Counted from the stretch's first letter, positions 8,186 through 58,079 are shown. The stretch: 64,000 bases of DNA from Owenweeksia hongkongensis DSM 17368 (GCF_000236705.1 NC_016599.1:1488001-1552000), one strand, 5' to 3'. Translations and numbers: made by a program. The notes: generated from the letters alone by a model not told the origin.

Positions 8186-10429
8186 TTACCTGATAATGGT
8201 AACATGTCCATGCTCGGTGCCCTTTGTGTAGGGAGTACGAAATACAAACTTATAAATGTATACTCCCACTGGTAAATCCTCGCTTTTCCAGCGTCCATCA
8301 AAAAGCATACTTTCATCATGTGAAGTAAAAACCTCCTGCCCCCAGCGGTTGTATACATAGAGGTTAAATTCCAAAAACTCACATTTGGTGACAGGTCCAA
8401 AGTAATCATTGAGTCCATCACCATCAGGGGTAAAAGCATCACCAAACATCACGTCACACTCACAGCTATATTTGCTTACGCTAAAATATTCTACACTTTC
8501 AGTGCATCCATCCGATAGCTCCACACGGATATTTTTATCTCCACTCACCAAATAGTCACCTGTTGTTCCATTAGGCCAAGTAGCCGTATAGCCCATAGGT
8601 GCTGATAACAGCAATGATTGACCTGCACAAACACTAGTATCCGCAAATACTGGATGATCAGAAAGTGGCGGAGTTGGTAGTATTTCAAATGAATCGGTTT
8701 GCCAACAGCCGTCAGCATTCTTGGTTGTTACCCATTCTGTGCCTATTTGCCAGTATTCCGTTTGCCAAGAAGTTTCACCATTACTCCATAGTACCGCAGG
8801 AAAAGTATTAGAGCGCAAGTAAACATTTACAGTATCCTGCCCGCATATAAAAAACTCATCATCGGCCACCGGGTCTGTGGTAAGGGTGGGGAATTTCACA
8901 TTTAAAGTATCTGTTATGCTGCAGCCTCCAGGGAACCTCACCTCAAACCAATAGCTACCATTATTACTGAATGTGCGAATGGATCGGCCACTCCCATCAA
9001 ACCATCGATAATATAATGCACCATTCACTGTAATATTATATGTAAAGCTAGTTCCTCCACAAACGGCTGTATCTAATGAAAATGAAGGCAAGTTGGAGCT
9101 ATTGATAATATTCACGTTCATGGTATCATGGTATACACAATTTGTTACCGGGTCTTCTGCAGAAACCCAGACCTTGCCTGAGTTGATAAAAGCGTTAACA
9201 TTTGATCTAGAACCATCCGACCAAGTGTAATTCATATTACTTGGTAGTGTCACATACAAAGAGTCACAGCTTGCAGAGTCATCAGGCAATAAATCAATTG
9301 GTGGGCAACCAGCAAATGCAATGATATATTGACTCATGGGAGTCTCTCCCGGTAGTGAATAGTTAGGCGTGTTTTTTCTATTAGTTTGAGTCCAGCTTGG
9401 TGATGCGTTATGCGGCCTAGTTGCCAGTTGAAGTGTGTTATTAGGATGAGAGGCCGTAGTACCAGATGGTATAACATACAGATCATACACCTTTGGAAAT
9501 TCTGAATTAAAAACTCCAAAATAGTAATCAATACCGACCACTGGATTAATGCCAGTTGTATTGGTTGGCTTGCTGTCAATAAAGTAAAGATGTGTACCCG
9601 GAATACCGATAGCGGTAGGATGAATAACTACACTATCTCCCGAAAGGCTAGAGCCGCCAGCGTCAGTACCATTGTAGCCATTATGATATGATCTATCTCC
9701 TATGGGGGCTGAGGAAAGCACCCAGGCTGGTCCATTTACTAAAGTTCCATCTGGGCCGTTGGTTACCAAATTGCTAAGGGTACTTCCTGAACCATTATCA
9801 AAACGATAATATGCGAGCAAATTGGGTTCGTTACCGCTAAGCTTGTGACACATCATATTTCTTATTTCGCCTTGGGTAAGAGCTTTGTCCCAAAAGGTTA
9901 GCTCATCCATTTGTCCATCATAATAGCGTCCTGTTGCTAATGGGCGACCTGTTCCGATAGTTCCGTTTCCAGATGCATTGTGAACCTGCGAATTACCACT
10001 ACCCGATGTGGACACAACTTGCTGATTGCCGTTTACATAAATATGAAGATTACTAGGCCCCTGAAATACTCCAGTAATGTGTACCCATTTTCCAACATGT
10101 CCTGATATGTTAGCCGAAGCACTCCTTCTGCATGAAGAAGCATAACAGTTGCCATCTCCAAACCCAATATTAACATCAGTAGACGAAATATTAGCTGAAA
10201 AACCAGAATAGCCAGCGGAAGTATGGTTTGTACAAAAGAGTGTACGGGAGCCATTGTATGAATCTAACTTTAACCAAACGGTAAAAGAAAACGGGAAATT
10301 TGCAGTGGTGAAATTTTGGTTGAAGTCAATATAATCATCGGTTCCATCAAAATCCAATGCTCCACCACTACCCACATTTTGAGCAATCAATGATTGACAA
10401 ATTAATATTAAAAGAGTCAAGTAGCGCAT
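8186..10429 (-). CDS. LamG-domain surface protein with T9SS type B C-terminal domain
   Basis: A probable T9SS cargo of 747 residues. A signal peptide (MRYLTLLILICQSLIAQ) is followed by a LamG/concanavalin-like domain at about 20-215 (GGALDFDGTDDYIDF, YYDGQMDELTFWDKALT, NLLAYYRFDNG). A region of beta-sandwich Ig-like segments with paired cysteines comes next, then a type B sorting domain (DAFTPDGDGLNDYFGPV, YNRWGQEVF, LPVGVYIYKF). LamG domains usually bind glycans. I chose the ATG at 10429 rather than 10438 because it aligns with the paralogue at 10548-12803 (both continue R-Y-L). The two genes are tandem copies. Type B cargo usually needs a PorP/SprF-type partner, which I do not see here. Confidence 0.9.
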   Translation of the reverse strand: MRYLTLLILICQSLIAQNVGSGGALDFDGTDDYIDFNQNFTTANFPFSFTVWLKLDSYNGSRTLFCTNHTSAGYSGFSANISSTDVNIGFGDGNCYASSCRRSASANISGHVGKWVHITGVFQGPSNLHIYVNGNQQVVSTSGSGNSQVHNASGNGTIGTGRPLATGRYYDGQMDELTFWDKALTQGEIRNMMCHKLSGNEPNLLAYYRFDNGSGSTLSNLVTNGPDGTLVNGPAWVLSSAPIGDRSYHNGYNGTDAGGSSLSGDSVVIHPTAIGIPGTHLYFIDSKPTNTTGINPVVGIDYYFGVFNSEFPKVYDLYVIPSGTTASHPNNTLQLATRPHNASPSWTQTNRKNTPNYSLPGETPMSQYIIAFAGCPPIDLLPDDSASCDSLYVTLPSNMNYTWSDGSRSNVNAFINSGKVWVSAEDPVTNCVYHDTMNVNIINSSNLPSFSLDTAVCGGTSFTYNITVNGALYYRWFDGSGRSIRTFSNNGSYWFEVRFPGGCSITDTLNVKFPTLTTDPVADDEFFICGQDTVNVYLRSNTFPAVLWSNGETSWQTEYWQIGTEWVTTKNADGCWQTDSFEILPTPPLSDHPVFADTSVCAGQSLLLSAPMGYTATWPNGTTGDYLVSGDKNIRVELSDGCTESVEYFSVSKYSCECDVMFGDAFTPDGDGLNDYFGPVTKCEFLEFNLYVYNRWGQEVFTSHDESMLFDGRWKSEDLPVGVYIYKFVFRTPYTKGTEHGHVTIIR

Positions 10430-10547
10430 TGTAATCATTTCGTTAAGCTATCTCAAATATAAGAATACCCCTACAAAACCTATCAGCTGCTAATGTTAAA
10501 ATTTGCTTTTTCGAAAAGAAAACACCAAAAAATGTTGTTGGCTGGAA
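10430..10547 (-). promoter_or_regulatory. upstream region of LamG gene 1, candidate -7 box
   Basis: On the minus strand TATATTTG (10454-10461) fits the Bacteroidota TAnnTTTG -7 element, 24 bases before the ATG. The preceding TTTTG-N12 is shared with the paralogue's upstream region but is too close to be a normal -33 element. No other gene is seen in this gap. Confidence 0.4.
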
Positions 10548-12803
10548 TTATCGCATCAAAGTAAAGTACCCTTGAGCAGTTCCTGACTTGTAAGGCGTGC
10601 TATACACAAACCGGTAAACATATACCCCTATGGGTAATTTGCGGTTTTTCCATCTCCCATCAAAGCGTAAGTTTTCATCTCTCGATTCAAACATCTGCTG
10701 CCCCCACCTATTGAGGATTATAAGATTGTAGGTTGTGAATTCACAATTGGTAACTGGGCCAAAATAATCATTAAGGCCATCGCCATCGGGCGTAAAGGCG
10801 TTGGCAAACTGCACATCGCACTCGCAACTATATTTAGTTACACTAAAGTATTCCACGCTCTCCGTACACCCATCAGACAATTCCACCCGAATATCTTTGG
10901 TACCTCCTACTAAATAATCACCAGTCTGTCCATTGGGCCATGTAGCTGTGTATCCTGAAGGAGCTGATAGTAGCAATGTTTGCCCCGCGCAAAAACTTGT
11001 GTCCGCAAATATAGCCTGATCCGAAAGTGGTAAAGATTGCAAAATTTCGAATGAATCAGTTTGCCAGCAGCCATCTGCATTTTTTGTTTGCACCCACTCC
11101 ATGCCCGTTTGCCAATATTCGGTTTGCCATGAAGTTTCCCCATTGCTCCATAATACCTCTGGGTACGTATTAGAACGAAGTTGGACATCAACGGTATCTT
11201 GACCACACAGGTACAACTCATTTTCAGCCACAGGATCTGTGGTGATAATTGCAAATTTCAAGGTCAACGTATCTCTAGTGCTGCACCCTCCAGGAAAGGT
11301 TCGCTCAAACCAATAGCTACCATCATTAGTAAATATACGGACGGGCTGCGTATTTCCATCAAACCACTGATAGCTTGTGGCTCCACTCATGCTAATGTCA
11401 CAAGTAAAACTGCTTGCTCCGCATATAACAGTATCTAGCGATGAGGATGGAATATTGGAAGGGCTGACAATAGTAACATCCATCGTATCAGTAAGGGTGC
11501 AACCAGAAGCTGTATCTACAGCCGAAACCCAAACCTGACCAGACACAAAAAAAGCATTCGAGTTAGTGGTTGCTCCATTGGACCAACTAATATTAGAATA
11601 TCCGCCACCAATATCTACAAACATTGAATCACAGGCTGTGGAGTCATCCGGCATCCAATCTACCACAGGGCAAGGCTCCTGGGCTATTATAAACTGACTA
11701 ATGGGCGTTTGGGCAGGCAAAGAAATATTGGGTGTATTTCCCGCAGCTGTCAGAGTCCAAGTGGGTGATGCATTATGCGGGCGCTTGGCAATTTTCAGCC
11801 TTCCAGTTGGCGCTGTCCCAGTAGTAGCGCCAAGAGTAACATCCACATCGTAGGTCTTAATATAATCTGAGTTGAAAACACCAAAATAGTAATTTACTGA
11901 TGGCCAAGTAGTAATGCCTGCTGTGTTGGAAGGTGGACTGTCTACTATATATAAATGTGTACCGGCCACGCCTGAATTGACGGGACTTACCGTTATATTA
12001 TCTCCTGTAAGGCTAAGGCCTGTAGCGCTTACGGCATTAGTATGCCCATTGTGAAAAGACCTATCCCCAACTGGTGCAGAAGAAGCCACCCAAGATAAGC
12101 CATTCATAAGAGTGCCACTTGGGCCACCTGTTACCAGATTACTTAAGGTAGTTCCCACCCCATTATCAAAACGGTAATAGGCCAAAAGATTGGGCTCATT
12201 TCCGCTAAGTTTGTGACACATCATGTCCTGTACTTCGACTCGGGTGAGGGCTTTGCCCCAAAAGGTAAACTCATCCATTTGGCCACTGAGGTAGGTAATA
12301 TTATTTCCTGCAGTATTTGCACCTAATCTACCGTTGCTATTATCAGTCACCAAGTTTTGTACCCCCCCTCCATTTCCTAAAGTAGTACTTAGAGGGTTTC
12401 CGTTTACATAAATTTGACCGGTAGTAGCTGAACTGATTACCACCGCAATATGACACCACTGGTCTGTAGTGAATGTATAATTGGCGACAAAACCCCACCG
12501 CCCAGTTGGAGAACGACTGGTACCATTTCCGCACTGCACATTTATGGTTCCGTTTATATACTGAAATAGCAACCCACGGTAAGCTCCTGTCATATCATGC
12601 GAACTAAAAAAACGAACGATACCATTTTGATTGTTACCTGCTTTGAACCAAGTAGTAAGGGTCATTGGAAAGGAAAGAGTTCCAAATGATGAGTTTAAAG
12701 AAACGTACTGATTGGTACCATTAAAGTCCAGGGTATTGCCACTACCGGGTGGTTGCGAAAAGAGTGGAAAAGAGGAAATAATTAAAACAACCAAGTAGCG
12801 CAC
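10548..12803 (-). CDS. LamG-domain surface protein with T9SS type B C-terminal domain (paralogue)
   Basis: A 751-residue tandem paralogue of the 8186-10429 product with the same order: signal peptide (VRYLVVLIISSFPLFSQ), LamG domain (GNTLDFNGTNQYVSL, GQMDEFTFWGKALT, NLLAYYRFDNGVGTT), Ig-like cysteine-paired segments, and a type B sorting domain (NAFTPDGDGLNDYFGPVTNC, LNRWGQQMF, LPIGVYVYRF). The GTG at 12803 is preferred because it aligns with the paralogue's start. A TTG at 12878 would add 25 residues ahead of the signal peptide. The C-terminal halves are nearly identical, the LamG halves less so, which suggests duplication then divergence of the binding domain. Confidence 0.88.
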   Translation of the reverse strand: MRYLVVLIISSFPLFSQPPGSGNTLDFNGTNQYVSLNSSFGTLSFPMTLTTWFKAGNNQNGIVRFFSSHDMTGAYRGLLFQYINGTINVQCGNGTSRSPTGRWGFVANYTFTTDQWCHIAVVISSATTGQIYVNGNPLSTTLGNGGGVQNLVTDNSNGRLGANTAGNNITYLSGQMDEFTFWGKALTRVEVQDMMCHKLSGNEPNLLAYYRFDNGVGTTLSNLVTGGPSGTLMNGLSWVASSAPVGDRSFHNGHTNAVSATGLSLTGDNITVSPVNSGVAGTHLYIVDSPPSNTAGITTWPSVNYYFGVFNSDYIKTYDVDVTLGATTGTAPTGRLKIAKRPHNASPTWTLTAAGNTPNISLPAQTPISQFIIAQEPCPVVDWMPDDSTACDSMFVDIGGGYSNISWSNGATTNSNAFFVSGQVWVSAVDTASGCTLTDTMDVTIVSPSNIPSSSLDTVICGASSFTCDISMSGATSYQWFDGNTQPVRIFTNDGSYWFERTFPGGCSTRDTLTLKFAIITTDPVAENELYLCGQDTVDVQLRSNTYPEVLWSNGETSWQTEYWQTGMEWVQTKNADGCWQTDSFEILQSLPLSDQAIFADTSFCAGQTLLLSAPSGYTATWPNGQTGDYLVGGTKDIRVELSDGCTESVEYFSVTKYSCECDVQFANAFTPDGDGLNDYFGPVTNCEFTTYNLIILNRWGQQMFESRDENLRFDGRWKNRKLPIGVYVYRFVYSTPYKSGTAQGYFTLMR

Positions 12804-12884
12804 GGGGAGAGTTTTGTTGAGTATATCAAAAATAAGTGTTAACCCACAAAATGATGAATTTAATATGTTAAAATTCAAACCATC

Positions 12885-44822: not shown

Positions 44823-45119
44823 TTAAATTCGTAGCTCCTTTGGGTTTTGTCTTGAATCCCAAACAGTGAGCACCTCAATAGTTTTGTCATTAATTCGATA
44901 GAATATTTTGTAGTCTTTCACTAATCGACACCTAATATTCTCAAGCTCTGTTGGTTTACCTGCAAGTGGGAATTTTGCCGTTATTGACATTGATTTATTA
45001 AACAACCGTTCAAGCTTGCGAGGATAAGCATCTGATTGATTCCTCTGCAACCAATACTCATAAATGAGCATTTTATCCTTAATTGACCTTAGTGTCCACC
45101 TGACTTCTCGAGTAGCCAT
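44823..45119 (-). CDS. type II toxin, RelE/ParE family
   Basis: A 98-residue protein of the RelE/ParE fold: REVRWTLRSIKDKMLIYEYW at the N-terminus and CRLVKDYKIFYRINDKTIEVLTVWDSRQNP at the C-terminus, the usual core R-x(6-8)-Y-K-I-x-Y-R. ParE members poison gyrase and RelE members cut mRNA; which applies is not visible. The start overlaps the upstream antitoxin-like gene by 31 bases, the classical antitoxin-toxin order. Confidence 0.85.
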   Translation of the reverse strand: MATREVRWTLRSIKDKMLIYEYWLQRNQSDAYPRKLERLFNKSMSITAKFPLAGKPTELENIRCRLVKDYKIFYRINDKTIEVLTVWDSRQNPKELRI

Positions 45120-45334
45120 TTTGAAATCAAGTTATCCGCTTCTTGTTGACTATACGTTCTACCTTCATTCACATCCGCCATGCCCTCATTTATACTTTTC
45201 TGTTCGTAAGGGTTGAGTTTGTAAGGGCTCTCCGCTTCTGTTTCAGCAGAAATCAACTCTAATATTTCAGTTAATATTTCAGGATTATCAATGGCATTGA
45301 CCCTCTCCATTATCTTCTCTTTGACATTCATCAC
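45089..45334 (-). CDS. putative antitoxin of the RelE/ParE pair
   Basis: An 81-residue acidic protein (NVKEKIMERVNAIDNPEIL, TYSQQEADNLISKWLLEK) placed immediately upstream of, and overlapping, the toxin gene. The Glu-rich C-terminal helix would fit toxin wrapping. I do not see a definite ribbon-helix-helix or HTH DNA-binding motif, so it is called antitoxin from context. Two adjacent ATGs are possible starts. Confidence 0.72.
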   Translation of the reverse strand: MMNVKEKIMERVNAIDNPEILTEILELISAETEAESPYKLNPYEQKSINEGMADVNEGRTYSQQEADNLISKWLLEKSGGH

Positions 45335-47395: not shown

Positions 47396-47875
47396 ATGAG
47401 CATGGGAATATCTGAAGAAATAAAACAGAGTAAATTTACAAGTGAGCGCCAAAAGGCAGCTATAAATCTTTTTTATACGAGCAATTGGCTATCAGAAAAG
47501 TTGCGAGCTTTTTTATCTAATGATGACCTTACCCCTCAGCAATTTAATGTTCTTCGCATTTTAAGGGGCAGCCACCCTGAGCCTCTAAGCACCCTTCAGA
47601 TTAGAGAGCGTATGCTCGATAAAATGAGCGATACTTCGCGCATAGTAGACCGATTGGTAAAAAAGGAATTGGTAAAAAAGGGAACGTGCAAAGCTGACAA
47701 GCGTTTGGTAGATATCAACATCACCGAAAATGGTCTTGACCTTTTATCTCGTTTAGATGAAAATTCTCAGGATTTAGATAATCACCTAAATGGTATATCA
47801 GAAGAAGAAGCTGAGACTTTAAGTACTATTTTGGATAAAATACGGGACAACTACACTTCTACTGGTGATAAATAA
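47396..47875 (+). CDS. MarR family transcriptional regulator
   Basis: A 159-residue winged-helix regulator. A helical dimerisation start (ERQKAAINLFYTSNWLSEKL) is followed by LTPQQFNVLRILRGSHPEPL, the recognition helix region LDKMSDTSRIVDRLVKKELV, and the wing KADKRLVDINITENGLDLL. MarR proteins usually bind palindromes near their own promoter and respond to phenolic or oxidative signals. The target here is not visible. Its 3' end overlaps the convergent secreted-protein gene by 17 bases. Confidence 0.92.
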   Translation: MSMGISEEIKQSKFTSERQKAAINLFYTSNWLSEKLRAFLSNDDLTPQQFNVLRILRGSHPEPLSTLQIRERMLDKMSDTSRIVDRLVKKELVKKGTCKADKRLVDINITENGLDLLSRLDENSQDLDNHLNGISEEEAETLSTILDKIRDNYTSTGDK

Positions 47876-48953
47876 GACCAGTGGAAGGCTTAGGGTGATA
47901 GTAGATTGGGTATGCAATCAATAGTGTAGGATCTGCATGGCAACCATTATCATCAACTACATCAGTAATATCTACTTGCAATGCATCTGCAGATAATAAT
48001 ATGCTACCTGCATCTCCTGTAGTGGTATATATTTGTGAGCCTCCACCATCGTTGTATGTTATTGTAAATGGAGCTGTACCCACCAGCCCATCAAAAGACA
48101 TCGTAGATTGTTGTTCTTTGCAAACAGTATCAAAGCTAACCGCAAAGTCTGGTTGTTCAAGAACTGTGACGTCTATAAATGTTTTCCTTCCTACGCAACC
48201 ACCCAGGTAGGTTTCTTGAGCTTGTAATCTGTAATTACCTGGACCTACAGTCCACTCCACAGAAGCTCTTCTATTATTATCCAGTTCTGGAGTAATAGTG
48301 CCTCCAGCTGTTCCTACCCAAGACCAAGAATACTCGAAGTTGTGGGGAGCACCGTCTGTAACTGCTGTACTGGGAGTATGAGTTGCCGTTTCTCCCTCGC
48401 ATACAATACCTGTTTCTACCACATCTGGTGCTACGGTAGCAGTAGTTGAAAAATCATCAAGTTCGGCATCTAAACTTGCAGCCACTCCAGATGCCCACCA
48501 TCTCCATCGAATCCGGTAATAACCAACTTCTGTAGTAGTTAAGTTCTCTGTTCTTGTTCCAAACTCTCCGTTACGAGAGTAAATCTGTGTCTCGCCTCCA
48601 AGTGGATCTACCAAATAGACTCTCATCCTCCCTGATGCAAAGAAAGTATATCCATCATGCTCATGTGTAAACGTAATATCTGTGGATCCATCAAAATAAT
48701 AGAAAGGTGTTGTAATTGCAGGTGCAGTACCAAAAATAACTAATGCATAGGAGTCTGCATGCCCGTGCGGTGCATCAGTTCCTGTATTGATGTGAGATGA
48801 ATTAGATATCGAGGATTGGTCAAAATCCCAGCAATCAGCTTCCAACTGAGTTACAGTATTACTGTTGAAGTTTTCGGAAAACTGCCCAAAAGAGCTGAAG
48901 CCTATACAAGCCGCCACTATCAAAAAAACTATATGTAGTCGCAAACTCGTCAT
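47859..48953 (-). CDS. secreted Ig-like protein with conserved TGLIYH C-terminus (A)
   Basis: A 364-residue secreted protein, last of a four-gene operon. A signal peptide (LHIVFLIVAACIGFSSFGQ) is followed by a jelly-roll-like domain to about 175 (ENFNSNTVTQLEADCWDF, GYYRIRWRWW). An Ig-like domain with a Cys pair (TGIVCEGETAT to GGCVGRKT) comes next, then a second one (FDTVCKEQQSTMSF, QVDITDVVDDNGC) that ends the protein with HPKPSTGLIYHQ. No T9SS type A or B domain is recognised. The last ~90 residues match those of the 49998 and 51203 products. Confidence 0.8.
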   Translation of the reverse strand: MTSLRLHIVFLIVAACIGFSSFGQFSENFNSNTVTQLEADCWDFDQSSISNSSHINTGTDAPHGHADSYALVIFGTAPAITTPFYYFDGSTDITFTHEHDGYTFFASGRMRVYLVDPLGGETQIYSRNGEFGTRTENLTTTEVGYYRIRWRWWASGVAASLDAELDDFSTTATVAPDVVETGIVCEGETATHTPSTAVTDGAPHNFEYSWSWVGTAGGTITPELDNNRRASVEWTVGPGNYRLQAQETYLGGCVGRKTFIDVTVLEQPDFAVSFDTVCKEQQSTMSFDGLVGTAPFTITYNDGGGSQIYTTTGDAGSILLSADALQVDITDVVDDNGCHADPTLLIAYPIYYHPKPSTGLIYHQ

Positions 48954-48955
48954 AC

Positions 48956-49990
48956 CTATCGCAATAGATTAAATGACCCTTGTTCATCAACTTGAGTACC
49001 GCCTACATCTTCTACCACTATCTTATAGGTGTACACTCCCGTAGGAACAGGTTTTCCATTTTGAGTGCCGTCCCAACCATCTGATCCACTACTCTCATCC
49101 CAGCTGTATACCATTTCGCCCCAGCGGTTGTATACATTAGCTTGGAATCTAGCGATGCCTACTCCCTTAAAAAGGAACACATCGTTAATTCCATCTCCAT
49201 CAGGCGTGAATGCATTAGGAATAAATAATTTGAAGATTTTCTTAACATAAACATACCTGTAAAGAGTATCTGTACACGTACCATCGGACACTACTTGAGT
49301 TACCACATGATCGCCTTCTTCATCAAACTGATAACGCGCGTATGTGCCTGAGCCCTGTTTATTTTCATCCAAATACCAATCTACGCCTACGCCCGAGGCG
49401 CCAGTATAGTATAAATCCAATATGGTGCCTACTTGCAGGGTGTCTTCAAGTGAGCTGATAGAAGTCTGTGGGGGATCGACCACTTTTATAAAATGAAATG
49501 TAGTATCTGGATCACAAGGATAATTGTCGGCCACCAAATAAACTGTGGTATCCTGATGTGCAATAAACCTTATTTCCTTGTCCTTTTTACCACCCTGCCA
49601 TATTACACCGGAGGTAAGTGCAGTACTCAAAATAACCTCCGTTCCTCTACAAACCTCTTGCGGACCAGCCACACTAGCTTTGACCGGAGCTATTATATAA
49701 ATTTGAGCGAATGTGGTATCGTGACAGTCTCCATTGAGCGGAATTGCCGTTACGGAAATAGGAAAGAACCCCGGAGTAGGGTTCCAATCAACAAGAATAT
49801 CATTTGAATCAGGTTTAGAAAGAATAGTTCCACCTGTAATTTGCCAACTATAAATAACGCCAGCTTGAAACGGAACAGCAAGATTGGATGGCCCTGCTGT
49901 AGTACATATTGTGTCAACTACTACCTGTGCTCTTAGGCCTGTAAAGCCCAAAAGCATCAGGGTGAGTAATATGTTAGCAGCGTTTTTCAA
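48956..49990 (-). CDS. Ig-like surface protein with T9SS type B C-terminal domain (B)
   Basis: A 344-residue secreted protein. After a signal peptide (LLTLMLLGFTGLRAQ) come Ig-like domains with paired cysteines (VVDTICTTAG, YSWQITGGTI, ILVDWNPTPGFF; GPQEVCRGTEVIL). A type B sorting domain of about 90 residues closes it (IPNAFTPDGDGINDVFLF, VYNRWGEMVYSW, PVPTGVYTYKI). It is expected to be exported by T9SS and held at the surface. The first Ig-like domain is related to those of its three operon neighbours, which lack the sorting domain. It is 2 bases from gene A and 7 bases from the next gene. Confidence 0.88.
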   Translation of the reverse strand: MKNAANILLTLMLLGFTGLRAQVVVDTICTTAGPSNLAVPFQAGVIYSWQITGGTILSKPDSNDILVDWNPTPGFFPISVTAIPLNGDCHDTTFAQIYIIAPVKASVAGPQEVCRGTEVILSTALTSGVIWQGGKKDKEIRFIAHQDTTVYLVADNYPCDPDTTFHFIKVVDPPQTSISSLEDTLQVGTILDLYYTGASGVGVDWYLDENKQGSGTYARYQFDEEGDHVVTQVVSDGTCTDTLYRYVYVKKIFKLFIPNAFTPDGDGINDVFLFKGVGIARFQANVYNRWGEMVYSWDESSGSDGWDGTQNGKPVPTGVYTYKIVVEDVGGTQVDEQGSFNLLR

Positions 49991-49997
49991 GTACTAA

Positions 49998-51125
49998 TTA
50001 TTGATGAAAAATCAAACCTGTAGATGGTTTTGGATTTATTACAATAGGTACTGATGGTAAGCTTGCTGGATCAGCACTACAAGCTGTATTTTGATCTAAT
50101 GAAAGTACGGTAAGCGTTTGACTGCTTACGTACGCTGGTAAGGTTTTCACAAAAGGGCTTGACGCTACAGTGTCCGTATAGGTAGTGGTTCCATCAGTAT
50201 AACTAACTACCCAAGGAGCTGTTCCTGTAAATGTGAATGTTGCCGTTGGAGCACTGCCAGCACATACCGGATTTATTATAACATCTACTGTAGGAAGTGT
50301 ATCAACAATAACGTCCATTTGTACCGTATCACCGATACAACCAGTGCTGCTGGTTTCGTACACATTAAGAGTATATAGACCACTCGTTCCTGACCAATCT
50401 ATTTGAATAGTACTGTTATCTGCGGTAATACTATTATCAATGGTTCCGGCAGCTGGGTTAGAAATAAACCAAGAATAGTTGCTACCAGATACTGGGTTAT
50501 ATATTTTATACTCTTGGTCAGCATAGCTGCTACAAATGGTATCTGTAGGAATGCTCATTGCCGGACACACGCCATTATTATTCAAGCTAGAATCAGAAGC
50601 ATAACTACCGTGAATGCTAATATCATCAATAACACCACGAGCTGCCCCACCTGATCCGGTCCATTCAAACTCTACCTGATAAATTCCACTCCAAGCAACC
50701 GTTACGGCCTCGGCTTGAGTAGTGGTTGGTGTGGCCGCAGCTACATAATCATAAGTAAAAGGAGTATTAACCGTATTTCCAGATTGATCTAAAATTTTGA
50801 CTTGAAGCTCACGAACTGTACCCATATTGGTATTATGAAGCTTATGATTAAATGCAATTATTCCAGTTCCGTTGAATTTTACGAATGGAGTTTTTAAACT
50901 ATAAGTCTGATTGTTAAGGTTATTTGTCCTTAGATAAGGTTCATCTACCCCCGTATTGATAGCGTCACTACCCGATCCTCTAATAGCAACTCCATTAGAC
51001 AAATCCCAGCAGGAGGCATTTGCAGTAGCAGTGCTATTGTGATTAAAATTTTGAGTAACCTGTGCTTTTAGAGTATTGAGTAAGGGAACCGCAAAAAGTG
51101 TAAGTAGGAGTAACTTTTTTTTCAT
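49998..51125 (-). CDS. secreted Ig-like protein with conserved TGLIFH C-terminus (C)
   Basis: A 375-residue secreted protein with a signal peptide (KKKLLLLTLFAVPLLNTLKA). A jelly-roll-like domain follows (QNFNHNSTATANASCWDLSN, IYQVEFEWTGSG) that is similar to that of gene A. Then come two Ig-like domains (DTICSSYADQEYKIY...GCIGDTVQ and NPVCAGSAPTATFTFTGTAP...NTACSADP) and the end NPKPSTGLIFHQ. No type A or B sorting domain is recognised. Gap of 77 bases to the upstream gene. Confidence 0.8.
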   Translation of the reverse strand: MKKKLLLLTLFAVPLLNTLKAQVTQNFNHNSTATANASCWDLSNGVAIRGSGSDAINTGVDEPYLRTNNLNNQTYSLKTPFVKFNGTGIIAFNHKLHNTNMGTVRELQVKILDQSGNTVNTPFTYDYVAAATPTTTQAEAVTVAWSGIYQVEFEWTGSGGAARGVIDDISIHGSYASDSSLNNNGVCPAMSIPTDTICSSYADQEYKIYNPVSGSNYSWFISNPAAGTIDNSITADNSTIQIDWSGTSGLYTLNVYETSSTGCIGDTVQMDVIVDTLPTVDVIINPVCAGSAPTATFTFTGTAPWVVSYTDGTTTYTDTVASSPFVKTLPAYVSSQTLTVLSLDQNTACSADPASLPSVPIVINPKPSTGLIFHQ

Positions 51126-51202
51126 GACAAAAAATTAAAATGAATAAATAGCAGAAAATGTCAGGGTGGATAACCCTAACATTTTCAATGTTGAGTAACT
51201 TG

Positions 51203-51841
51203 TTAGTAGTGGTAAATCTGACCGGTATTGGCCGCAGGATGAATAATAACATTGATACCAGTCACCGGAGTAACTTCGCTACATGTATTATCATCTACTA
51301 CAGATGTAATATCTAAGGTTTGACTTGTGGTATAACCGGCCCCCGTCATGGTATACACATGAGGTGAAGCTGTGGCTACGGTACTGTAATTATTTGTGCC
51401 ATCAGTAAAGTCAATGGTCACCGGAAATTCACCGGTAACAGCAAAAGTTAGCGTTGGATCAAAGCCTTCACATACTGAATCGGACACCACAGTAGCAGAG
51501 GGCAAATCATTAACGATAACAGTTAACTGAACCGAATCTCCTATACAGCCGAACTCTGTTGTTTCTACCGCGTATACGGTGTATGTCCCTGGCGTCATAC
51601 CCCAGTCGATTTCTATTTCATTGTTGCTAGTGGTCACTGAATTATCAATTGTACCACCTGCGGCTGCATCAATATACCAGGTAAAGGTGCTATTGGCATT
51701 TGCAGAAGAGATTCCGTAAACTTTATCTTGTGTACCCGCACAAACACTATCTGGTGTTGTAATTTGAGCATTAGTAGAAAAACTAACCCCAATAAGAGTA
51801 AAAAGAAGAAATGTAACTAATTGAGTAGATTTCTGTTTCAT
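51203..51841 (-). CDS. secreted Ig-like protein with conserved TGQIYH C-terminus (D)
   Basis: A 212-residue secreted protein, first in the operon. A signal peptide (QLVTFLLFTLIGVSFSTNAQ) precedes two Ig-like domains (DSVCAGTQDKVYGIS...GCIGDSVQLTVIV and VSDSVCEGFDPTLTFAVTG...VVDDNTCSEV). The end is HPAANTGQIYHY. It has the same two-domain core as genes A and C, without their jelly-roll domain, so it is the minimal form. No sorting domain I recognise and no clear TAnnTTTG box upstream. Confidence 0.8.
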   Translation of the reverse strand: MKQKSTQLVTFLLFTLIGVSFSTNAQITTPDSVCAGTQDKVYGISSANANSTFTWYIDAAAGGTIDNSVTTSNNEIEIDWGMTPGTYTVYAVETTEFGCIGDSVQLTVIVNDLPSATVVSDSVCEGFDPTLTFAVTGEFPVTIDFTDGTNNYSTVATASPHVYTMTGAGYTTSQTLDITSVVDDNTCSEVTPVTGINVIIHPAANTGQIYHY

Positions 51842-52313
51842 TGCGTTAGTAAAATTTAATATGACTAATTTTTATGTTTTCTAATCGTTTACGTTATACC
51901 TGAACATTGAGTAAATCCATACAATACCGCCTCTATTAAACTAAAATTCCACCCCTAAGGGTGGAATTATAAAGTGCTAACTAACAGAGTAGTGAGTAAT
52001 AATAGTGTAGAGTTGTTTTCATGTCAAGTTAACCTATTTTCAAAATCGTGTTTCAAGCGACTTGCCTCTTCAAGAATATTAAGCCTATCCTCAAATTGCT
52101 TAACAATGATAGTCGGAAAATAATATGCTAGAATAAGTGATTGATGTTCAAAACAATAAGCCAAAAAATTACAGATGTATGGATTGAGAGAGTGAAAAAA
52201 AGGCACTTTAATCCACTAACTATCAGTATGGCATGCATTGATTCACAAATACTTGGACTCCACGAAAAACTGTACGATTCAAAAATCATCTATGTTAAAA
52301 ATGAGCACAAAAA
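51842..52313. other. long intergenic stretch without a supported gene
   Basis: About 470 bases between the secreted-protein operon and the pyrF terminator. Short open frames exist on both strands (around 52024-52206 minus and 52141-52329 plus). They overlap each other, and the plus frame runs into a terminator hairpin, so neither is supported. It is AT-rich; I see no repeat, tRNA or clear promoter. Confidence 0.5.
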
Positions 52314-52338
52314 AAGCGGAGCCTTTTGAGCTCCGCTT
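52314..52338 (-). terminator. pyrF terminator
   Basis: A 9-bp stem AAGCGGAGC/GCTCCGCTT with a 7-base loop; on the minus strand a run of T follows (TTTTTTTGTGC). A second small hairpin (AACCCC/GGGGTT, 52355-52376) lies between it and the pyrF stop. Confidence 0.85.
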
Positions 52339-52388: not shown

Positions 52389-53207
52389 TTACTTAATGTA
52401 AGGAGCCATTTCCTGCTGAAGAGCTTTTGCCTTTTTTCCCGCTATTTCAGCAAAATCCTCTTCATTGGAGGCATAAATGACACCTCTTGATGAATTGATT
52501 AATAAATTAGGTTCTTTTCCCAAACCATTTTCCATAACCTCACTAAGGCTGCCACCTTGAGCGCCAACACCGGGCACAAGCAAAAAGTTTTCGGGAACAA
52601 CATTCCTCACCTTACGCATGTAGTCTGCTTTAGTAGCACCTACTACATACATCATATCTTCTTTGTCGCCCCACTTTTTGCTTTCTTCCAATACTTTTTC
52701 AAAAAGCATTTCATCGCTATTTCCTCGGTTTTGAGTTTGAAAATCGAATGCACCTGGGTTAGAAGTTAGGGCTAAAAGAATCACCCACTTATTTTTAAAA
52801 CCTGTAAAAGGCTTTACAGAATCACTACCCATATACGGAGCTACAGTGATAGAGTCAAAACTAAGTTCTTCGAAAAAAGCCTTTGCATAGCGAGCCGAAG
52901 TATTCCCAATATCACCGCGTTTTGCATCAGCAATGGTAAAAACCTCAGGATAATTTTCATTCAAATAATTGATGGTTTTCTCCAAACTTTGCCATCCTTT
53001 TACGCCAAGTGCCTCGTAAAAAGCAATATTTGGCTTGTAAGCTACTGTATATTTGTGAGTAGCATCAATTATGGCTTTATTGAATTCAAATACCGGGTCT
53101 TCCTTTTCCAAAAGGAAAGAAGGAATTTTTTCAATATCAGTATCCAGTCCTACGCATAGCACTGACTTTTTCTTTCGAATTTGCTCTACTAGCTGCTTTC
53201 TGTTCAT
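52389..53207 (-). CDS. pyrF: orotidine-5'-phosphate decarboxylase
   Basis: PyrF removes CO2 from OMP to give UMP, the last step of de novo pyrimidine synthesis. The 272-residue product is of the longer type 2 group. It has [15 protein letters not shown] at the start, the catalytic [19 protein letters not shown] (D-x-K-x-x-D charge network), [15 protein letters not shown], and a phosphate-binding [11 protein letters not shown] with [10 protein letters not shown]. Cytoplasmic. It is 3 bases from the prfA stop and co-directional, so prfA-pyrF (with purM upstream) are probably one transcript. Confidence 0.96.
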
Positions 53208-55829: not shown

Positions 55830-58079
55830 TTATGATGTAAATATCACCAGGAGGGCATTATTTACACCACTATTCTTATCAGCAATAATATCCTTTGGAT
55901 CAACAGCATCCTGATCAACAGGGCCAGCTGCTGGTACGTAATCATCGCGAAGTACTTTAAAGTCAGTTCTACGGTTTACTTGGTTAGCAACTTCCTGCTT
56001 CTCCGGTGGCAACCTTTTGATATAAGCTTCCGTCAATCTATTTCCTTCTTCCAGCTGACCAGCTCCATATCCTTTATAACCTTCTTGAATATTAAATGGC
56101 TCCGTTTCTCCCATACCGCGAGCTACCATTCTATCAGCTGCTATACCTTTTGATACTAGGTAGCTAACGCAGGTATCTGCACGATGCTGAGAAAGTACAT
56201 CATTACTCTTATTATCACCACGATAATCCGTGTGCGAACGAAGTTCGATAACAATTGTTGGGTTGTTCTTCATAATTGGTACCACGCTATCCAATGCAGC
56301 GCGAGCTTCTGGACGAAGATCCCATTTTGCCAAGTCAAAGAATACATTCGGTAAAACAATTGGCTCTTCGATTGGATCCAAGGCTTTATTTACTTGTAGC
56401 TTATGTAAAAATTGATTTGCCGATGGGATATACTCAAAAGCAGATAAATCAACTCCAATAGTTGTTGTGTTCCCTGTATTCGTAAGGAACTTAGCTTTTT
56501 CAAAAGTTAATGTATACTGAACGTCAGCATCAATTTTATCTTTATCAAAAATGTAGTATCCATCTTTATCAGCATTTACCACAACGCTAGTACCGTTAGA
56601 TCCATCCAATTTTACAGTAGCCTGAGGAATTGGTAATCCGGTTTTAGAACTAGTAACAACCCCTTCCAGCTCAAATACCAATGGAGTTTTTACCACACCA
56701 TAGATGTCGTCATTCTTAGAACCTTTACGATTACTGCTTAAGAAACCAACTTCATCCTTTGTTCCCTGAAATACTAAGCCGAAATCATCAAAACTGGTGT
56801 TTATTGGGTACTCCAAATTCTCAGCTTCTGCATTCGGTGCCGGCATGCCATCTTCGCCTAATTTAATTCTGAAGATATCCAGACCACCCATTCCTGGCAA
56901 TCCGTTAGAAGCCCAGTATAAATATTGACCATCTCCACTAATAAAAGGATAATACTCCTCACGATCGGTGTTTACTTTTGAACCTAAGTTGGTTGGGGTT
57001 TTCCAGATTTTTGCTCTACGATCAAAAGTGGTCATAAATATATCATGGACTCCCTTGGTGTTGAATTCATCCGAAACAAAATACAACCTACTATCGTCAG
57101 GAGATAGTGCTGGCTGACCAACATTAGCCGAAGTATCAGTTCCAATAATAACTTGCTCTGGCTCTTTCCAGTTAACACCAAGCTTTTCTGAAATGTAAAT
57201 TCCACAACCAAACTTTTTATCCTTTTCTACTAAGCAACGTGTTAGGTAAAGTTCTTTTCTACGTGAATCAAATACAGCAGATCCTTCGTGACTTTTTGTG
57301 TTTACAATTTCTTCATCCAGTAATTTTGGGGTAGACCATTTTAAAGAAGCAGGGCTCACCAATTCATCTTCATCAGTTGAAGCTCCTCTTCCTCTTCTCC
57401 CCTTCTCTTTTCTTTCTGCACTACTTACGTAAATATCCATGAAGCTACCGCCCGTCCAGCCGTCTTCCTTTTTACCAACCGACTCTTCACGTGTGGAAGT
57501 AAAAATTATCTCATTGTCATCAGCACGTTTTCCTGCATAAGATGGTGAAAAATCATACCCAGTGCTATTCAAGTCTTTCATCAAATCTACCTGATAGCGG
57601 CTTGGGCTATCCATCCATTCTATGGCTTTTTTAGTAGACTCAATTCCTATCTCCGCTCTTCTATCAGTAGGATTTTCCTGCTTAAAATCTTGGTATGCTA
57701 CAATTGCCTCTTCATACTCCCCTTGTGCTTTTAGCATATCTGCATAATGCAGCTGAGCAATAGGATCCTTATACCCAAGCTTTACGGCCTTCAGGTAATA
57801 GTTTTCAGCATTCTTATAATCGTTGATATTTCTGTAAGACTCAGCTATTTTAAATAGTACCGTAGACTTATCATCTCTACCTCTTACTTCTCCAAGCGCA
57901 GTTTTTAGCAACTCGATGGCAAGCGTATATTCTTGCGCATCATATGCATCGTATGCTTTTTCTACATCTTTATGGAGTTTTTCTTTTGGCTCGGTATCAT
58001 CTGTATTCTCTTGACCAAAAGCAGGAAATACACTTATACTAAATACGACTAGTAATACACCTAAGTAAGGTATTCTCAT
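55830..58079 (-). CDS. TPR/PD40/OmpA outer-membrane protein (PorE-like)
   Basis: A 749-residue protein with a signal peptide (LGVLLVVFSISVFPAFGQ). TPR repeats span about 30-150 (AIELLKTALGEVRG, AENYYLKAVKLGYKDPIA), a PD40/WD-like propeller about 165-460 (NEIIFTSTREES, SRLYFVSDEFN, YLYWASNGLPGMGGLDI), and a carboxypeptidase-regulatory domain about 465-545 (LEGVVTSSKTGLPIPQATV). An OmpA peptidoglycan-binding domain follows (VFFDLAKWDLRPEAR, ELRSHTDYRGDNKSNDVLSQ, VNRRTDFKVL). This order is that of PorE, a T9SS component, though paralogues exist. The frame ends ALLVIFTS after leaving an apparent fusion with the LysM tail. Confidence 0.9.
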   Translation of the reverse strand: MRIPYLGVLLVVFSISVFPAFGQENTDDTEPKEKLHKDVEKAYDAYDAQEYTLAIELLKTALGEVRGRDDKSTVLFKIAESYRNINDYKNAENYYLKAVKLGYKDPIAQLHYADMLKAQGEYEEAIVAYQDFKQENPTDRRAEIGIESTKKAIEWMDSPSRYQVDLMKDLNSTGYDFSPSYAGKRADDNEIIFTSTREESVGKKEDGWTGGSFMDIYVSSAERKEKGRRGRGASTDEDELVSPASLKWSTPKLLDEEIVNTKSHEGSAVFDSRRKELYLTRCLVEKDKKFGCGIYISEKLGVNWKEPEQVIIGTDTSANVGQPALSPDDSRLYFVSDEFNTKGVHDIFMTTFDRRAKIWKTPTNLGSKVNTDREEYYPFISGDGQYLYWASNGLPGMGGLDIFRIKLGEDGMPAPNAEAENLEYPINTSFDDFGLVFQGTKDEVGFLSSNRKGSKNDDIYGVVKTPLVFELEGVVTSSKTGLPIPQATVKLDGSNGTSVVVNADKDGYYIFDKDKIDADVQYTLTFEKAKFLTNTGNTTTIGVDLSAFEYIPSANQFLHKLQVNKALDPIEEPIVLPNVFFDLAKWDLRPEARAALDSVVPIMKNNPTIVIELRSHTDYRGDNKSNDVLSQHRADTCVSYLVSKGIAADRMVARGMGETEPFNIQEGYKGYGAGQLEEGNRLTEAYIKRLPPEKQEVANQVNRRTDFKVLRDDYVPAAGPVDQDAVDPKDIIADKNSGVNNALLVIFTS

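Follow-up and report, generated by a model that had tools for sequence, protein, structure and literature searches.

A short C-terminal tail that may dock secreted proteins onto a co-encoded type B T9SS protein in Owenweeksia hongkongensis and related bacteria

An operon of four genes in the marine bacterium Owenweeksia hongkongensis DSM 17368 is here read, with a slight leaning in favour, as building a multi-subunit cell-surface complex, in which a portable C-terminal tail would dock subunits lacking a T9SS C-terminal domain (CTD) onto a co-encoded type B hub protein. The docking reading is drawn from five features of the sequences: the tail itself, its restriction to cassette proteins, the non-homologous proteins bearing it, its place in lieu of a CTD in IgGFc proteins, and the constant pairing with one type B protein. 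A further claim, given not quite an even chance, is that a short C-terminal peptide (T-x-x-I-aromatic-H-aromatic/Q) substitutes for a folded T9SS sorting domain, different folds being sent to or held at the surface by clipping onto one dedicated type B protein. T9SS substrates are recognised by a folded C-terminal domain, so that secreted proteins without a CTD are as a rule not taken for T9SS cargo. If the docking reading is true, T9SS surface complexes would include subunits missed by current annotation, a seven-residue tag and one hub protein would serve to display other proteins on cells of Bacteroidota, and at least some orphan type B proteins would gain a possible job as anchor of a multi-subunit complex.

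The window, a stretch of 64,000 nucleotides (NC_016599.1:1488001-1552000), lies within a complete genome of 4,000,057 bp. The features of the cassette and its borders, in window coordinates, are as follows.

52389-53207, minus strand: pyrF, conserved border of the cassette slot
51203-51841, minus strand: g1, small secreted protein of 212 aa and constant cassette member, with signal peptide, PKD_6-like Ig domain, second Ig-like domain and tail TGQIYHY
51203-51226, minus strand: C-terminal tail TGQIYHY of g1 with stop codon
49998-51125, minus strand: g2, secreted protein of 375 aa, with an N-terminal domain without family match, two Ig-like domains and tail TGLIFHQ
49998-50021, minus strand: C-terminal tail TGLIFHQ of g2 with stop codon
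48956-49990, minus strand: g3, T9SS type B protein of 344 aa with TTG start, Ig-like regions and type B CTD, the proposed hub
47859-48953, minus strand: g4, secreted protein of 364 aa, paralogue of g2, with tail TGLIYHQ
47859-47882, minus strand: C-terminal tail TGLIYHQ of g4 with stop codon
47396-47875, plus strand: marR-family regulator, convergent, the usual other border of the slot

The four ORFs are arranged in the order g1 (51841-51203), g2 (51125-49998), g3 (49990-48956) and g4 (48953-47859), with intergenic gaps of 77, 7 and 2 nt, as had been given by an earlier reading made from the sequence alone (the sequence-only reading). The 3' end of g4 and the convergent marR gene overlap by 17 bp. 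The products of g1, g2 and g4 terminate in HPAANTGQIYHY, NPKPSTGLIFHQ and HPKPSTGLIYHQ, and the earlier description of three secreted proteins with a common TG-I-(Y/F)-H end was confirmed. Signal peptides were evident by eye in all three, and no cysteine was seen by eye after the signal-peptide cleavage region. Neither a type A nor a type B sorting domain was matched in g1, g2 or g4 at E<=1 in Pfam and NCBIfam, in agreement with the same reading. The ChiA-type C-terminal region of about 100 aa (type C) likewise gave no NCBIfam match in the three proteins, the presence of a type C model in NCBIfam being unconfirmed. The match of PF19408 to g1 (E=4e-5) was just under the cut-off of that model.

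The type B domain that had been assigned to the fourth ORF (48956-49990) was recovered at the end of g3 with TIGR04131 (E=2e-14, 53.5 bits versus a cut-off of 35) and PF13585 (CHU_C, E=8e-17). By eye, its N-terminus is hydrophobic and ends in RAQ, corresponding to a Sec signal peptide. Export of type B proteins runs through SprA, and PorP/SprF-like barrels hold them (PMC9143113, PMC12618676). Six PorP_SprF genes above the cut-off were found in the genome and none of them in the window, which makes g3 an 'orphan' type B protein as PMC12618676 uses the term.

The last 102 or so residues of g1, g2 and g4 can be aligned with 18 invariant columns, including V14-C15, C76, T96-G97, I99 and H101. The alignment of about 90 residues noticed earlier thus stands, but not as one unit: the conserved end consists of two parts, an ordinary Ig-like domain and a separate tail of 7-9 residues. 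A VVDDN-C motif near the end was present in two of the three proteins, but g2 has LDQNTAC. A profile search of the conserved end gave a divided result. When the 102-residue alignment was compared with relatives, strong matches were obtained only in short proteins (open frames of 214-430 aa) of one family, and nearly all of these reached the end of the profile; elsewhere among the relatives, however, the matches were weak and internal, mostly in large ORFs. Outside the family, the full small-protein profile matched only ORFs of 575-5564 aa in 395 genomes of the phylum, and the tail was present in none of the fetched stretches outside the cassette that matched this profile. Because the non-cassette matches are weak, internal, mostly located in large ORFs and, in the fetched stretches, devoid of the tail, the Ig-like domain is considered ordinary. 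The sequence-only reading had proposed the unit of about 90 residues as a possible sorting, anchoring or partner-docking signal, unless it proved to be an internal repeat of large adhesins; its Ig-like domain has internal relatives in such giant ORFs across the phylum, and the last-90-residue domain was ruled out as the signal. Only the last 7-9 residues are both strictly C-terminal and portable.

In the Ig proteins the tail reads K-P-x-T-G-x-I-(Y/F)-H-(Y/F/Q), and the consensus for the whole cassette, at the extreme C-terminus, is T-x-x-I-(Y/F/W)-H-(Y/F/Q). The segment TGAIFHY of the alignment, with 0.65 bits the 10th lowest among 180 such segments, was as conserved as the core motifs of the Ig domains, and the preceding strand region had 1.52 bits. 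A search of ORF ends (at least 34 aa) in the whole 4.0 Mb genome for T-x-x-I-aromatic-H-x-stop yielded none beyond g1, g2 and g4. Across 395 phylum genomes, the DNA pattern for P-x-T-G-x-I-(Y/F)-H-x-stop was found only in the genes of the host and in four short frames, approximately the number expected by chance. Within the 13 genomes with a cassette, all tail-pattern matches ending long ORFs, among the matches examined as loci, were cassette genes. Given the genome-wide search and the absence of an I-(Y/F/W)-H end from 155 neighbouring ORFs, the shared tail is not due to chance. The P-x-T-G motif, which is present in many small proteins of the cassette, was also considered as an LPXTG-like sortase signal; this was rejected, as only 4-5 residues follow it in place of a hydrophobic membrane span and a basic tail, and the IgGFc tails are without P-x-T-G.

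The tail was not confined to one fold. All 25 cassette proteins of the slot other than the type B proteins have an I-(Y/F/W)-H end, a count that covers every such protein with one of two near-identical loci left out; none of the 13 type B proteins and none of 155 neighbouring ORFs has it. The IgGFc_binding family, which is unrelated to the Ig proteins, accounts for six of the 25 tailed proteins. They stem from six genomes in which the cassette starts with an IgGFc_binding (PF17517) protein of 454-479 aa; PF17517 was matched with E=2e-39 and 1e-34 by the two members tested, and the six proteins align to the first at 50-61% identity. Their tails are VLTEPIYHF, VTTEPIYHF, VITDKIYHY, VLTEPIFHYN, VRTDPIFHFK and VITDSIYHF, with T450, I453 and H455 invariant in the alignment. 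The genome of the window is without an IgGFc cassette gene and has g2 and g4 instead. A further cassette protein, of 312 aa as called, was found in genome G017; it has apparently a single Ig domain and ends in RPKPISGPIYHY.

Outside the cassette, all nine sampled IgGFc homologues matched a C-terminal T9SS CTD model, eight of them type B (TIGR04131) and one type A (TIGR04183), with several matches under the curated cut-off. The closest of the non-cassette homologues (1254-1255 aa) continue from the IgGFc domain through further domains to a type B CTD; the cassette proteins, in contrast, end with the tail. Since the homologues carry a CTD where the cassette proteins end in the tail, the tail replaces the CTD in the IgGFc family. 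This replacement could also be taken to mean that the tail is an autonomous T9SS sorting signal, i.e., a very short new CTD read by the translocon or by a PorP/SprF-like shuttle and not by the type B partner, and the strictly C-terminal position of the tail, independent of the preceding fold, would suit such a signal. We regard it as unlikely, because known CTDs are folded domains of about 100 aa (types A and C) or 150-235 aa (type B) (PMC12618676, PMC10202324), and because the tail was not found away from the slot of the type B partner, save in one g2-like paralogue. Among three g2-like paralogues outside the slot, only this one, in the cassette-bearing genome G026, has kept the tail. The absence of the tail from the other two is consistent with a slot-specific role.

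The distribution of the cassette shows a fixed partnership with the type B protein. A small protein (212-237 aa) followed by a type B gene of 341-351 aa, either directly or after an intervening g2-like gene as in the window, was recorded from one family in 13 of 88 genomes, several of which are fragmentary MAGs, so that absence counts are approximate. Among 99 relatives, the small and the type B proteins (the latter at E<=1e-140) were confined to exactly the same 13 genomes, and the next-best matches to the cassette type B protein were some 90 orders of magnitude weaker. On this co-occurrence, the constant core of the cassette is the small Ig protein plus the type B protein; in some species the slot holds just these two. 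The suggestion of the sequence-only reading that the tailed proteins are subunits assembling on the type B protein, or that their end serves in partner docking, gains support from this constant core and from the occurrence of the tail on structurally unrelated members. A single-chain ancestor of the small and type B proteins was considered and rejected: the next-best type B relatives (727-730 aa, from cassette-negative genomes) are ordinary and without the small protein.

The cassette always lies downstream of pyrF, beyond which prfA, purM and a porE-like gene follow where the contig reaches; this long porE-like gene is a few genes from the cassette in every relative with a contig extending that far. 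The other border is the convergent marR gene in most genomes; Phaeocystidibacter-like genomes have no marR at the border, and the gene that elsewhere follows marR comes next. Among the carriers of the cassette is the cultured Phaeocystidibacter luteus. Four cassette-negative relatives (G037, G056, G038 and G011) have an empty slot with pyrF adjoining marR, and some cassette-negative relatives belong to genera that have the cassette. From these arrangements, the cassette is gained or lost as a block. In the cassette-negative genome G043 (L243 3409-6090), the slot between pyrF and marR is taken up by a DNA-methyltransferase-like gene together with an HTH gene, which suggests that the slot is an insertion hot spot. 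A tandem duplication was seen in genome G017 (L036 6918-12709), where two small/type B pairs occupy one slot, each with a tailed g2-like gene.

Structure models were calculated with AlphaFold. In seven cassettes the small gene continues in frame into the type B gene past a single stop codon; with this stop read as glycine, a natural linked chain for modelling is obtained. The linked chain (20-row alignment) was modelled with a mean pLDDT of 82.9 and a pTM of 0.41, the placement of its domains being of low confidence. Residues 224-226 (FHY of the tail) formed a strand in this model, with the tail at modest confidence and tethered by the chain. When the small protein was modelled by itself (13 rows, pLDDT 86.2), its tail came out as a coil directly after the last Ig strand, and the rest of the fold was essentially unchanged. 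The prediction of a strand in the linked model alone would agree with the tail taking on order upon contact with its partner. The aligned sequences of 13 type B proteins revealed no site for binding of the tail.

Two other explanations touch on these models. According to the first, the tail would insert into the N-terminal Ig domain of the next subunit as a donor strand, and the cassette would build a short chain resembling a pilus, with the type B protein as its base. The tail occupies the position at which a following Ig domain would start its first strand; an Ig-like domain does come next at that point in the closest single-chain IgGFc homologue (L168/L216), and only the linked model predicts the tail as a strand. 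No subunit has been shown to lack a strand, however, and a slot with just the small and type B proteins leaves no chain, unless the small protein polymerises with itself; such a polymer is therefore judged quite improbable. The second explanation, in which the tail remains from a gene fission or caps and stabilises its own domain, without a docking role and in periplasmic proteins, would agree with its position directly after the last Ig strand of the small protein. It is held to be very unlikely, as the same residues end the IgGFc cassette proteins, where no Ig domain precedes them, as the tail is modelled as coil in the small protein alone, and as its conservation exceeds that of the preceding strand.

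Under the preferred reading of docking onto the type B protein, the latter (about 345 aa) would be the sole subunit with a T9SS export and anchoring domain. The remaining subunits, i.e., the small Ig protein plus an IgGFc-binding or g2-like Ig protein depending on the species, would be tailed and CTD-less and would be carried or anchored by the type B protein. Docking of their tails on this protein would follow Sec export and would most likely take the form of an added beta-strand. The T9SS passes folded proteins through a 36-strand barrel (PMC9251779), and the complex may leave together through the SprA translocon (hitchhiking) or may be assembled outside. The type B CTD would then hold the complex on a PorP/SprF-like barrel encoded elsewhere. 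In the open-access papers searched, no precedent was found for a T9SS with donor strands, hitchhiking or CTD-less partners, or for IgGFc-binding proteins together with a T9SS.

From its genes, the cassette can be likened to PorP-PorE-PG1035 of Porphyromonas gingivalis and SprF-SprB of Flavobacterium johnsoniae (PMC9143113), in which a type B CTD protein is held on the surface by a PorP/SprF-like barrel. Unlike in these systems, the cassette type B gene has no neighbouring barrel gene, and it is always accompanied by a CTD-less tailed partner, none of which has been described for them. Orphan type B proteins (PMC12618676) share with g3 a shuttle encoded elsewhere, but no tailed CTD-less partner was reported for them. 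The CTD types A, B and C (PMC10202324) likewise serve surface proteins of this phylum as C-terminal signals; the tail, in contrast, comprises 7-9 residues, not a folded domain of about 100 aa, and matches no sorting model of NCBIfam or Pfam. Type V (FimA/Mfa) pilins have a lipoprotein signal peptide with Cys at +1, which is absent from g1, g2 and g4 by eye, and their C-terminal donor strand fills the next subunit; the cassette tail became a strand in the linked model only. The best structural neighbour of the linked model was GhpA, the grappling hook protein of Aureispira (Foldseek E 1e-18; PDB 9flp, 9fly, 9flw). Both have tandem bacterial Ig-like domains, which in GhpA belong to a surface structure, but GhpA is one giant protein and not a set of tailed subunits, with about 15% identity.

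Three further features bear on the expression of the cassette.

52314-52338, minus strand: terminator-like hairpin of pyrF with T run, between pyrF and the cassette
51999-52027, minus strand: sigma-70-like promoter match TTGACA-17-TATTAT (11/12), about 160 nt upstream of g1, a consensus match only
51154-51186, minus strand: 14-bp hairpin in the 77-nt g1/g2 spacer (-20.5 kcal/mol, z -3.8, weak T run)

The gene spacing had been taken to support co-transcription. The gaps were confirmed, but because of the hairpin in the 77-nt gap the four genes may not be transcribed equally, and g1 may exceed g2-g4. The hairpin is possibly a partial terminator or a processing site. No RNA family was found in the region with Rfam.

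Some minor observations concern the Ig-like domains and other parts of the window. The small-protein profile matched the Ig-like domain of the nucleoporin POM152 with the second Ig domain of g1 (E=4e-8), and the Pfam POM152 Ig model matched a g2-like protein of a relative (E=6e-9). Against the sequences of solved structures, the small and type B profiles had only weak matches (for the second Ig domain POM152, besides C5a peptidase), and the IgGFc profile had none. Two larger ORFs on the minus strand (8186-10438 and 10548-12878) have ends matching the type B CTD of g3 (phmmer, E 2e-12 and 7e-11). Two small adjacent ORFs at 44823-45334 resemble by eye a RelE/ParE-type toxin and its antitoxin; the pair was not seen at that place in the relatives looked at. 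The PorE-like gene of the window (55830-58079; TPR, PD40, OmpA), a few genes from the cassette, matched T9SS_PorE of NCBIfam with E=3e-140, under the cut-off.
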